From: a virus | Reading direction: 5' to 3' (one strand) | Length of the DNA: 22,714 nucleotides | Virus record (IMG/VR): IMGVR_UViG_3300036860_000780 | Coordinates: 1 to 22,714 of that record | Shown: positions 4,121-21,917 of the stretch, piece by piece | Layout of the letters: each line of letters opens with the position of its first letter | Numbering within the stretch: position 1 is the stretch's first letter | Notes under the pieces: model-generated | What the model saw: only the letters and a program-made list of their open reading frames with translations | The model's database searches: none | What the model was told of the DNA's origin: nothing | Translations under genes and position numbers: made by a program

Positions 4121-4390
4121 ATGGCGATCCAGGTCACCAATCTGAATGATGGCTCGACCATTCCGATGCTCGATGGAAGCTTTCGGCGATTTGGCACCTT
4201 GAACGTGACGGGCCTGACCCCGGGCGCGAATAACGTCCCGCACGGGTTGCCCTTTGCGCCGACGCGGATTTGCCTACGGCCAATCGGCGTCTATGGCTGG
4301 TCGGAAACGGCGATGCCGAGTGCGACCACGATTTTTGTGCAGGTCGCGGCGGGCGCCACGGCCAATGGCTACATCGACTACATGGAGTGA
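4121..4390 (+). CDS. Small hypothetical virion protein
   Basis: The 89-residue protein is beta-rich and has no charged tail. Visible features are a repeated polar-hydrophobic pattern (AIQVTNLNDGSTIPMLDG, FGTLNVTGLTPGANNVPHG) and a closing TTIFVQVAAGATANGYIDYME. This looks like a small beta-sandwich such as a capsid-surface or fibre-head piece. A GGAG about ten bases before ATG 4121 supports the start. Its position between capsid accessory genes and the connector suggests a virion protein. No family is recognised. Confidence 0.55.
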   Translation: MAIQVTNLNDGSTIPMLDGSFRRFGTLNVTGLTPGANNVPHGLPFAPTRICLRPIGVYGWSETAMPSATTIFVQVAAGATANGYIDYME

Positions 4391-4422
4391 GGACAATCGC
4401 TTTTCGAAAAAAGGAGCACCAG

Positions 4423-5010
4423 ATGAGCAGATGGACACGTTATGTGATTTGGGCCCGGCCGCAAGCGGGCTGGCCGGGCCGGCCCCCTGTGGATCCGGGT
4501 TACGGAGTCGAGGGTCCGGTGGACCCGGGCTATGGACTTCCGATCCCGCCGCCCATCGATCCGGGCTATGGTCTAGAGGGTCCGGTGGACCCGGGCTATG
4601 GACTTCCGATCCCGCCGCCCATCGATCCGGGCTATGGAGTCGATGCCGGCGGACGGCCCTCGCATCCGATCGTGAAACCTCCGGGATTTCCGGTGTTACC
4701 GGTGGATCCGGATTGGGGTGTGCCGGTCGGACCACCGAGCTGGCCTGGCGACTGGATTCCCGTCGATCCTGGCTATGGGCTACCGCCCGTCTGGGGCTGG
4801 CGTCCGGTCGACCCGGGATTCGGCGTCCCTCTGCCTGGTGGCGGTGCACCGACACCGGCGCCGCCGATCCATTTACCGGGCCACTGGATTCCCGTCGACC
4901 CGAACTATGGCATACGGCACCGGCCGTGTCCGCCGCCCGTGGCGCAGCCGAAATGGGTATGGATTCCCGAAATTGGCGCCAACTTCGGGCTTACACCCAA
5001 AAAGAAGTAG
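4423..5010 (+). CDS. PVDPGYG-repeat protein, unknown function
   Basis: The 195-residue protein is made almost wholly of Pro-, Gly- and aromatic-rich repeats. The motif P-[VI]-D-P-[GDN]-[YFW]-G occurs about ten times, spaced by proline linkers such as GLPIPPP, and tryptophan-containing variants (GHWIPVDPNYG, GDWIPVDPGYG) fill the C-terminal half. The protein begins MSRWTRYVIWARP and ends with a basic GLTPKKK. AAGGAG at 4411-4416, six bases before ATG 4423, is a strong start signal, so this is a real gene despite its composition. No membrane segment, signal peptide or cysteine pair is seen. A repetitive extended fold is likely. Its place between head and connector genes suggests a virion-surface or assembly role, which is inference. 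Confidence 0.72.
   Translation: MSRWTRYVIWARPQAGWPGRPPVDPGYGVEGPVDPGYGLPIPPPIDPGYGLEGPVDPGYGLPIPPPIDPGYGVDAGGRPSHPIVKPPGFPVLPVDPDWGVPVGPPSWPGDWIPVDPGYGLPPVWGWRPVDPGFGVPLPGGGAPTPAPPIHLPGHWIPVDPNYGIRHRPCPPPVAQPKWVWIPEIGANFGLTPKKK
4510..4641 (+). repeat. Two tandem 66-bp repeats inside the PVDPGYG gene
   Basis: Positions 4510-4575 and 4576-4641 are nearly identical 66-bp units. Each encodes 22 residues with two PxDPGYG motifs separated by LPIPPP. The high DNA identity, compared with the degenerate repeats around them, points to a recent tandem duplication. Confidence 0.9.
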
Positions 5011-17755: not shown

Positions 17756-18584
17756 GGCTTTGTTTCTGAAGCGAACGCCTGTAATCGGCCCCATACATCG
17801 GGATCAATTCACACATTTCATAGAGGCGGGACCGCAGACGCTCCCCAATCTGATCTTCTAACGTTACGGGTTCATCCCGCGGCGGGCGGAGGTAAATGCC
17901 GCAATTTTCCAGGCGTTGCAATTGGAAATTATCGATGTCGCCCTCGGCGTTCATCACACCCAACTTCTTTAAGTAGGCGGAGCGTGCCTTGACGCGATCA
18001 ACGGACGCTTTGTCGCTAAGATTCGTCGTGATTAACGTCGGCTGATGGTGATCATAGCGATTGCTGATGACCGCCGACATCATGTCCTGCACCCAGCCCG
18101 ACCAGCGTTGCGAGCCGAAGTCATCGAGAACCAAGACCTCGGCGTCATAGACCAACCGCGGCAAAATCAAAGTCTGGCTTTCACTCATCGAATCCCGGAT
18201 CTTTTGCAATTCCCAGGAAAAATTACAGAAGAAACAGGAAATGGACTGGTTTCGCATCAACGCCTTGATAGTGCTTACGGCAAGATGACTTTTGCCCAAA
18301 CCGTAATGTCCCATAAAGAGCAACCCTTTTCCCGTAGTTTGGGTAAGGTAGTTCTCGACGTAGCCTTCGGCTTTGACCAGCGCCATTTTCAGAAATGGAT
18401 TGTCCGGCGGCGGGAGATAATTATCGAACTCACAGTGCTCGTAGGTGCGGGGAATCCCGGCCGCTGCGAGTAGCCGCGCTGGCCGTCCTTGCTTGACGCA
18501 TTCACATTGCAGAACGCCGTTTCGTTCGGGAATGTATTTCTGTCCCGAGCCGCCGCAGTGCGGGCAATCTTTTTGACCACTCAT
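17745..18584 (-). CDS. dnaC: DnaC/IstB-type helicase loader ATPase
   Basis: The 279-residue minus-strand protein has an N-terminal zinc ribbon (CPHC at 7-10 and CEC at 27-29) and an AAA+ core. Walker A is GHYGLGKSH at 92-100, Walker B is VLVLDDFG at 150-157, and sensor 1 is TLITTNL near 183-189. A conserved Arg-containing helix lies after it (ARSAYLKK). This is the form of DnaC-type loaders that place the replicative helicase on the initiator complex. The stretch between sensor 1 and the C-terminus is somewhat longer than usual. The ATG overlaps the stop of a 37-residue ORF upstream. Confidence 0.88.
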   Translation of the reverse strand: MSGQKDCPHCGGSGQKYIPERNGVLQCECVKQGRPARLLAAAGIPRTYEHCEFDNYLPPPDNPFLKMALVKAEGYVENYLTQTTGKGLLFMGHYGLGKSHLAVSTIKALMRNQSISCFFCNFSWELQKIRDSMSESQTLILPRLVYDAEVLVLDDFGSQRWSGWVQDMMSAVISNRYDHHQPTLITTNLSDKASVDRVKARSAYLKKLGVMNAEGDIDNFQLQRLENCGIYLRPPRDEPVTLEDQIGERLRSRLYEMCELIPMYGADYRRSLQKQSHER

Positions 18585-18694
18585 TCGAACTCCAAATTTT
18601 TTATGATGGTTTTAGCTGCGTTGTTCACGATCACGCCGTGAATTTTTGCGGTTAGGCTCGGGGGAAGTTTGCGCTTCCTCCGGGCCGTCGCCAT
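18581..18694 (-). CDS. 37-residue basic ORF before the helicase loader
   Basis: The minus-strand frame reads MATARRKRKLPPSLTAKIHG, then a short hydrophobic stretch (VIVNNAAKTIIKNLEFE). It ends in TGA overlapping the loader ATG as ATGA, and AAGGGA lies about ten bases upstream of its start. The coupling suggests real translation, with a cluster of Arg/Lys near the N-terminus. Such a small peptide may bind nucleic acid or only aid translation of the loader. The size makes this uncertain. Confidence 0.45.
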   Translation of the reverse strand: MATARRKRKLPPSLTAKIHGVIVNNAAKTIIKNLEFE

Positions 18695-18756
18695 TCTAGC
18701 GAAGTCCCTTCTTAGATTCTTTTAAATTCATCAAGCATTCAAGGATGGGTTGGCGT

Positions 18757-18822
18757 TTGGACGAGAACTTCAGGCTTGTTGGACGAGAACTTCAGGCTTA
18801 TTGGACGAGGACTTCAGGGTCG
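18757..18822. repeat. Three 22-bp iterons, candidate replication origin
   Basis: Three direct repeats of 22 bp start at 18757, 18779 and 18801. The first two share TTGGACGAGAACTTCAGG with only the last base of the unit different; the third is degenerate (GAGGACTTCAGGGTCG). They lie between the initiator-like gene and the helicase loader, directly beside an AT-rich stretch (about 18710-18742). Iterons of this size next to an initiator gene are the classical origin layout. No long gene is convincing in the 18695-19059 interval. Confidence 0.7.
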
Positions 18823-18853
18823 CGTTCCTGGAGTGCAGGGTAGAGGAGATCCA

Positions 18854-18909
18854 GCGCATTTTTCCGCATGCGCGCCCGTAAAAACGGCGTCCCTGGTCCG
18901 GGTTTTTAC
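18854..18909. other. Two inverted repeats beside the iterons
   Basis: GCGCAT (18854-18859) and ATGCGC (18868-18873) form a short dyad. GTAAAAAC (18878-18885) and GTTTTTAC (18902-18909) form a second with a 16-base spacer. They could be extra initiator sites or part of a cruciform at the origin. They lie in the same intergenic gap as the iterons. Confidence 0.4.
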
Positions 18910-19059
18910 CGATTGTCAAGGGTCTCGGGGTTCGGGGCTGGGGCAAATGAGGCGCGAACCAGCCAAAATCTCCAGCAGTCAGACACACCCTCGCCGCGGG
19001 TTTATCCGAGCGCGGTCCCCTCGATTGTCGATATGTCCACCCGCAAGGGGGTGGAACAA

Positions 19060-20211: not shown

Positions 20212-20232
20212 GTTGTTCAGACTTGAACTAAG

Positions 20233-20273
20233 GGCTCGCTCTCATTTGCTCTGAGGGCGAGCCTTTTCGTTTC
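20233..20273 (+). terminator. Rho-independent terminator
   Basis: GGCTCGCTCTC (20233-20243), a 9-base loop, and GAGGGCGAGCC (20253-20263) form an 11-bp stem with one mismatch, followed by TTTTCGTTTCTT. It points right on the plus strand. No established plus-strand gene ends just upstream, so it may insulate the integrase or end an RNA from the 19951-20232 interval. Confidence 0.75.
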
Positions 20274-20394: not shown

Positions 20395-21555
20395 ATGTCC
20401 GTATACAAACGTGGCCGGGTCTACTGGTACGAATTCGAGTTTCTGGGCGAGCGGCATCGCGGCTCGACGCACTTGCGCAACGAGCGGCTGGCCGAGCGGT
20501 ACGAAGCCAAGTTGCGATCGGATCTCGCCTTGGGCCGGATTGGCCTGGCGGAGCTGAAACCCAGCCCGCGCCTGGACAAGTACGCCGCCCGCTTCCGTGG
20601 CTTCATCGAGCTGCACAACAAGGAACATCCCCGCACGATCGATTTTTACAAAGAGAAGCTCGCCCGTTTGCTCGAATACAAGCCTCTGGCGGAATGCGCA
20701 TTGAACCGCATCGACGAGCCGCTGATCGAGCAATACGCGCAGCACCGCGGAAAGACCGTCGAACGCGCCACCATCAATCGCGAGCTGGCGACGCTGCGGC
20801 GCCTGTTGCATGTGGCCCGCGACACCCACAAAGTCGTTCAGCGCATCGCGAAGATCGCGATTGATCTGAAGGCTGAAATCGGCCGCGAATTCGTGCTCAG
20901 CTACAACCAAGAGAAAGCCTACCTTGCCGCCGCCGATGATCTGCTGCGCGATTTCGCTGTTCTCTCGCTGGATACCGGCCTGCGCGCCGGTGAAGCGGTG
21001 AAACTGGCATGGAACGATGTTTCGATCCAAAGCGCCTATGGCGCGCGCCTCGGTTGGGTGCACGTGCGGGGGAAAAAATCCAAGAACGCGAATCGAAAGT
21101 TGTCGCTGACGCCGCGGGTGTGCGCGATGTTGGAACACCGCCGCCGGTTTCTGCCCGACGCCCACTTTGTTTTTCCGGGCCGCGCGGAGGGACGGCACAT
21201 CCTCGTCACATCCATCGACCATAAGCATGCGCGGGCTCGGAAGGCGGCGCGGGTCGAACTTGAAGAGGGGACGGTCGAGACCTTGCCGGAGGACTTTGTG
21301 GTACATTCGTTGCGGCACACGTTCGGGACCCGGTTGGGGATGGATCCGCGCAACGATGCCTTTACAATTATGAAAATCATGGGTCATTCCTCGGTCACCG
21401 TCTCGCAAAAGTACGTGCATCCGACCCCGGAGGCGATGGAGCAAGCCTTCGAGCGGCTGGATGCGATGAATGAGATTTTGCGAGGGGATACCGAGGCCGG
21501 GCGGAAGCTCGGGGTACCCACACCGTCCCCACACCGGCTCAAACGCGGTGGGTAA
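20395..21555 (+). CDS. int: Tyrosine recombinase integrase
   Basis: The 386-residue protein has an N-terminal arm-binding style start (MSVYKRGRVYWYEFEF), a core-binding helical part (residues about 55-160), and the complete catalytic set. Arg197 is in DTGLRAGE, a beta-turn Lys near 228 is in VRGKKSKNAN, His304 and Arg307 are in HSLRHTFGTR, His331 is in MGHSSV, and the nucleophile Tyr340 is in SQKYVHPT. It integrates and excises the phage at an attachment site. The ATG has no strong ribosome binding site. A tRNA fragment starts eight bases after its stop, the expected place of attP. Confidence 0.95.
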   Translation: MSVYKRGRVYWYEFEFLGERHRGSTHLRNERLAERYEAKLRSDLALGRIGLAELKPSPRLDKYAARFRGFIELHNKEHPRTIDFYKEKLARLLEYKPLAECALNRIDEPLIEQYAQHRGKTVERATINRELATLRRLLHVARDTHKVVQRIAKIAIDLKAEIGREFVLSYNQEKAYLAAADDLLRDFAVLSLDTGLRAGEAVKLAWNDVSIQSAYGARLGWVHVRGKKSKNANRKLSLTPRVCAMLEHRRRFLPDAHFVFPGRAEGRHILVTSIDHKHARARKAARVELEEGTVETLPEDFVVHSLRHTFGTRLGMDPRNDAFTIMKIMGHSSVTVSQKYVHPTPEAMEQAFERLDAMNEILRGDTEAGRKLGVPTPSPHRLKRGG

Positions 21556-21563
21556 CGTCTTGT

Positions 21564-21605
21564 GCGCCCGTAGCTCAGCTGGATAGAGCATCGGACTTCG
21601 AATCC
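21564..21605 (+). other. 5' half of a tRNA-Arg(UCG), candidate attP core
   Basis: GCGCCCG, TA, then a D-arm (GCTC AGCTGGATA GAGC), then TCGGA, a 7-base loop CTTCGAA and TCC match the first half of a tRNA-Arg. The anticodon TCG is at 21598-21600. After TCC the sequence runs into CTAACTATCTC with no variable loop or T-arm, so the gene is only a 5' half. The adjacent integrase points to an attachment site. No promoter-like boxes precede the fragment, so it is probably carried by the phage rather than being a native host gene. Confidence 0.75.
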
Positions 21606-21641: not shown

Positions 21642-21917
21642 TCACCCTTTGTTTTCATCGCGCGCGTCGTCTCCCCCAACCGTAGGAAACAGCCCGGGAA
21701 GGTAGGGGGTCCCCACAAATCCCCCCATACTGTCGGGCAGGCGCTCGATGAATGCTCTTAAATCTTGGCGTTCAATCCGAACGAGTTTGCCCAGCTTCAC
21801 GGAGCGCAGTTTACCCGACCTAATCTGCTTGCGCACCCAGCTGACGGAGGTCTGCAACATTTCGGCGACTTCCTCGCGTGTCAGAAGGGGCTCGACGGCA
21901 GGCTCAACGGATTTCAT
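21642..21917 (-). CDS. Excisionase-like HTH protein (MerR/HTH_17 type)
   Basis: The 91-residue minus-strand protein has LLTREEVAEMLQTSVSWVRK and QIRSGKLRSVKLGKLVRIER followed by QDLRAFIERL, the winged-HTH pattern of excisionases and small HTH_17 regulators. GGGGAGG about ten bases before ATG 21917 supports the start, and the ATG overlaps the preceding stop as ATGA. Its place directly across the attachment site from the integrase fits an excision control protein. It could also be a regulator only. The C-terminus (GGFVGTPYLPGLFPTVGGDD) is not part of the HTH. Confidence 0.75.
   Translation of the reverse strand: MKSVEPAVEPLLTREEVAEMLQTSVSWVRKQIRSGKLRSVKLGKLVRIERQDLRAFIERLPDSMGGFVGTPYLPGLFPTVGGDDARDENKG

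Follow-up and report, generated by a model that had tools for sequence, protein, structure and literature searches.

A tRNA-Arg(TCG) 5' half directly behind a tyrosine integrase gene as the probable attP of a temperate tailed phage

Integration into tRNA genes may leave either end of the target gene as a displaced fragment, and the Islander collection contains 3760 islands with a 3' tRNA fragment versus only 159 (159/3919) with a 5' fragment, with anticodon-centred sites forming one main recognized class (PMC4383910). In the islands with a 5' fragment, the gene is rebuilt on the island side. In the T7-like cyanophages, the first half of a tRNA-Leu gene is found behind the integrase gene (int), the att motifs match this first half, and integration has been shown by the deletion of int and of attP (PMC8776855). 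Partial tRNAs beside integrases have also been used for host prediction in marine phages (PMC3861242). The 5'-type arrangement is already known, then, as a minority kind (PMC8776855, PMC4383910), and the locus described here is a further example. The first-pass annotation of this DNA, which had contrasted its 5' half with the more common 3' part, is in line with the Islander counts.

The window, that is, the whole stretch of DNA analysed (22,714 bases), is an entire virus record, a linear fragment without terminal repeats, which contains tailed-phage genes for the head, the tail, and replication. The features of the locus are the following:

20230..20266, plus strand: terminator-like hairpin upstream of int, with 15 pairs and a T-rich tail (pattern match only)
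20395..21555, plus strand: tyrosine integrase gene, 386 aa, stop codon included in the coordinates; matches to PF00589, PF02899, and phrog_1
21514..21533, plus strand: two tandem candidate arm-type sites, GTACCCACA and GTCCCCACA, within the 3' end of int; motif GTMCCCACA
21564..21605, plus strand: 5' half of tRNA-Arg(TCG), tRNA bases 1-42, the identity block of the putative attP; 42/42 against the intact tRNA of viral record L002
21596..21602, plus strand: anticodon loop CTTCGAA, tRNA bases 33-39, the predicted strand-exchange (overlap) region
21642..21917, minus strand: gene of a small, excisionase-like HTH protein of 91 aa, with its ATG at 21917; PF12728 (HTH_17), E 6.5e-14
21709..21717, plus strand: candidate arm-type site GTCCCCACA, on the opposite side of the core, approximately 100 bases beyond the half

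The integrase is a tyrosine recombinase, with a profile match to the catalytic domain PF00589 (E 4.5e-17) and the conserved R, H-x-x-R, H, and Y, which are present as R197, H304, R307, H331, and Y340 in invariant columns of an alignment with eight relatives (A2). It also matches the phrog_1 integrase (E 2.1e-41). The best annotated relatives, from phages and plasmids, are 24-28% identical, while the viral_contigs search recovered no close relatives, and the genome_contigs search recovered a single match, from Clostridia, which is 22% identical and has no tRNA there. The hairpin upstream of int belongs to a class defined by pattern, of which three were found in the region searched, against 2.3 expected.

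Exactly eight bases separate the int stop codon from the first tRNA base at 21564, and the gene and the half are co-directional. The 42 bases of the half are identical to those of an intact tRNA-Arg with the anticodon TCG (identified by ARAGORN at 796-872 of L002), an exact match to the 5' end of a tRNA that cannot be due to chance. The identity begins at tRNA +1 and ends after base 42, three bases beyond the anticodon loop (bases 33-39) and within the 3' strand of its stem. The fragment covers the tRNA gene from its start through this loop and is followed immediately by CTAACTATCT, which is not tRNA. The 42-mer is present in a single copy in the record. The Rfam tRNA model scores the half below the threshold (17 bits), with the 3' part of the model unmatched, and the folding of the 42 bases alone was uninformative, as expected for half a tRNA. 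ARAGORN detected no complete tRNA in the window, and a search of the window for a T-arm or 3' half that might complete the gene, an outcome that the first-pass annotation had named as counter-evidence, found none. The same annotation had placed a tRNA-Arg 5' half eight bases after the integrase, within 20395-21605, and these coordinates proved exact throughout.

The missing 3' half does not in itself mark an attP, because an attL, in which the host 5' half lies beside phage DNA, lacks it too. The initial interpretation of a free-phage attP was based on this absence, and while the interpretation is upheld, the reason given for it is insufficient. What points to attP rather than attL is that the half lies between two stretches of phage DNA, with int eight bp to the left, the excisionase-like HTH gene to the right (phrog_66, excisionase and transcriptional regulator, E 4.5e-10), and candidate arm sites on either flank. 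The motif of these sites, GTMCCCACA, occurs three times in the whole 22.7 kb (at 21514, 21525, and 21709), always flanking the core, against 0.17 copies expected for a motif that was chosen post hoc. The arms of a lambda-type attP have a similar layout, but since the motif had been derived from the very sequence in which it was counted, the resemblance is to be taken as a lead only.

Four things are observed directly, namely a perfect tRNA 5' half, its termination shortly after the anticodon loop, its location behind int, and phage genes to the left and right of it. Very probably, the half is the attP used by a temperate tailed phage, with an integrase that targets the anticodon loop of the host tRNA-Arg(TCG) gene and a phage-borne block that takes the place of the 5' portion of this tRNA. 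The strand-exchange region would be the anticodon loop CTTCGAA, judging by the point at which the identity ends, which is shared with the pelagiphages. Recombination between this loop in attP and that of the host tRNA-Arg(TCG) gene would produce a prophage with a complete, working tRNA directly behind int at its integrase-side end, the 5' half being supplied by the phage and the 3' half by the host. The opposite end of the prophage would retain the host promoter together with the original 5' half of the host gene, a stub that continues into phage DNA. As the host promoter would stay with the stub, the rebuilt tRNA would need a promoter on the phage side, and its transcription would proceed either through read-through from int or from a promoter located inside the end of this gene.

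The cyanophages P-SSP7 and S-TIP37 share the layout of the window, that is, a tyrosine integrase gene followed by approximately 40 co-directional bp that reproduce the first half of a host tRNA gene and end in the anticodon-loop region. The tRNA-Leu 5' half behind int was confirmed directly in the sequence of P-SSP7, which differs from the window in the tRNA itself, in the position of the half, approximately 100 bp behind int, and in its virion type, while its integrase is 26% identical to that of the window over 266 aa. The 5'-fragment islands of Islander are similar in that they result from integration into a tRNA gene, although these islands were mapped in the integrated state, whereas the window is known from the phage side alone.

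An equivalent arrangement is found in pelagiphages of the HTVC019P/Foussvirus type (HTVC120P, Bylgja, HTVC309P, and S46-C10), in which blastn against annotated phages revealed a co-directional tRNA-Arg(TCT) 5' half some 60 bp behind int that is not annotated as tRNA. The tRNA identity stops at the same base as in the window, and the bases that follow this break are also similar (CCCTAGGTATC versus CCCTAACTATC). These phages differ from the window in their target, the tRNA-Arg(TCT) of SAR11, and in the 60 bp spacer, as well as in their T7-like genome, the RNA polymerase gene beside attP, and an integrase that is hardly alike. A degenerate pattern search recovered eight further contigs with the tRNA-Arg(TCT) 5' half, and in seven of them the sequence upstream is conserved phage DNA. 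In the eighth (L015, 5301-5398, minus strand), the half is preceded by unrelated, AT-rich DNA, while the sequence from the half onward is 94.6% identical over 5 kb to that of a free phage (L016). This contig is probably the junction of an integrated pelagiphage at tRNA-Arg(TCT), an attL with the displaced host 5' half.

The relatives of the integrase provide further examples of 5' halves. In five of them (L018, L019, L020, L021, and L023), a tRNA-Pro or tRNA-Val 5' half, identified by eye from the D arm and the anticodon loop, lies within approximately 150 bp behind int and ends at the anticodon loop, while no tRNA fragment was recognized with simple motifs in four others (L017, L022, L024, and L025). 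The relatives from alphaproteobacterial and Synechococcus phages (RHph_I3_18, VSN-002, Ssp-JY40, and a Sphingomonas plasmid prophage), which rank among the nearest full-length relatives recovered from annotated phages and plasmids (24-27% identity), resemble the window in having a tRNA 5' half behind int, but differ in that it is derived from tRNA-Pro or tRNA-Val and points against int. With this opposite orientation, the rebuilt tRNA would be located at the end of the prophage far from int. The use of 5' halves may be general in this integrase group, whichever way they point.

A second pattern, for tRNA-Arg(TCG), recovered nine viral records, with an intact tRNA in five (L002, L029, L030, L031, and L033) and the 5' half only in the other four (L032, L034, L035, and L036). 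The layout of L036 is the same as that of the window, with a co-directional integrase gene, of a different integrase, that ends approximately 50 bp before the half. The usual 3' type is found at the same tRNA in L030, where an intact tRNA-Arg(TCG) is followed by a convergent integrase. In L032, the 5' half has no 3' half, and a co-directional integrase frame is located downstream of it. The 5' half of L034, also without a 3' half, has an HNH endonuclease upstream, and no integrase was recognized among the frames tested. In L035 (582-765 in minus-strand coordinates), the tRNA-Arg(TCG) 5' half comes after an intact tRNA-His and continues into different DNA that contains a methylase-like ORF, as if a 5'-type element had split a pair of host tRNA genes.

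The half might also be an attL-type scar or tandem junction, with one prophage on the left and, on the right, another element that entered the same tRNA gene, rather than the attP of a single phage. Both attP and attL contain a 5' half followed by a phage P' arm and look identical there, the record is linear, incomplete, and devoid of terminal repeats, and tandem islands at one tRNA are known, including 125 tandems in Islander. This alternative is nevertheless improbable, given that candidate arm sites of one sequence type flank the core on both sides, the G+C content is similar on the left and right (0.59 and 0.63), and an excisionase-like gene opposite int suits the module of a single phage. 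Whole tRNA-Arg genes are common in phages, so that the half could represent the decayed remnant of a phage-borne tRNA gene with no role in integration, but the lack of any mismatch with the cellular tRNA in 42 bases, the break at the anticodon loop that is common to other phages, and the position only eight bases behind int make this highly improbable.

The junction is also known from one record only. No exact copy of the attP core with its P' arm was found in viral_contigs, which leaves the junction with no second supporting contig, and an assembly chimera between a phage and a host tRNA region might be invoked on these grounds. This origin is the least credible of all, however, as the sequence to the right encodes the excisionase-like protein and independent phages show this architecture as well. 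The viral_contigs search recovered no relatives of the capsid, and no host genome, integrated copy, or close phage relative was found in the searches of viral_contigs and genome_contigs, so attB, attL, and attR were not seen.

If the half is the attP of a single phage, the transcription of the rebuilt tRNA would depend on the phage side. In P-SSP7, a sigma-70-like site (TTGTTA-16-TATAAT) is located 19 bp before the half, whereas no such promoter was found in the 150 bp that precede the half in the window, although the promoters of the host of this phage may be non-consensus. The lack of a sigma-70-like site is compatible with read-through from int, the possible route that the first-pass annotation had suggested. 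Given this, and the position of the half only eight bases after int, the rebuilt tRNA-Arg(TCG) might be made in the lysogen only as the tail of the integrase message, which would tie the tRNA supply of the host to the transcription of the integrase, although this stricter version is unlikely.

The half provides a candidate attB, a tRNA-Arg(TCG) gene with these same first 42 bases, through which an uncultivated phage may be linked to its host. It also adds, from beyond the T7-like marine phages, an example of tRNA restoration of the 5' type, in which the phage must also supply the transcription of the rebuilt tRNA.

Some minor features were observed elsewhere in the window. The gene of the small terminase subunit (226-982) is followed by that of the head maturation protease (1097-2395), and no large terminase or portal gene was recognized between them among the ORFs scanned; the large terminase and portal genes probably lie in a portion of the genome that the record lacks. 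An ORF of 246 aa among the head genes (4270-5010) contains repeated PVDPGYG / IDPGYG motifs and is rich in proline and glycine, but it may not be a genuine gene. The G+C content falls to 0.53 in the region of the DnaC-like helicase loader (18001-19000), in comparison with approximately 0.61 elsewhere.
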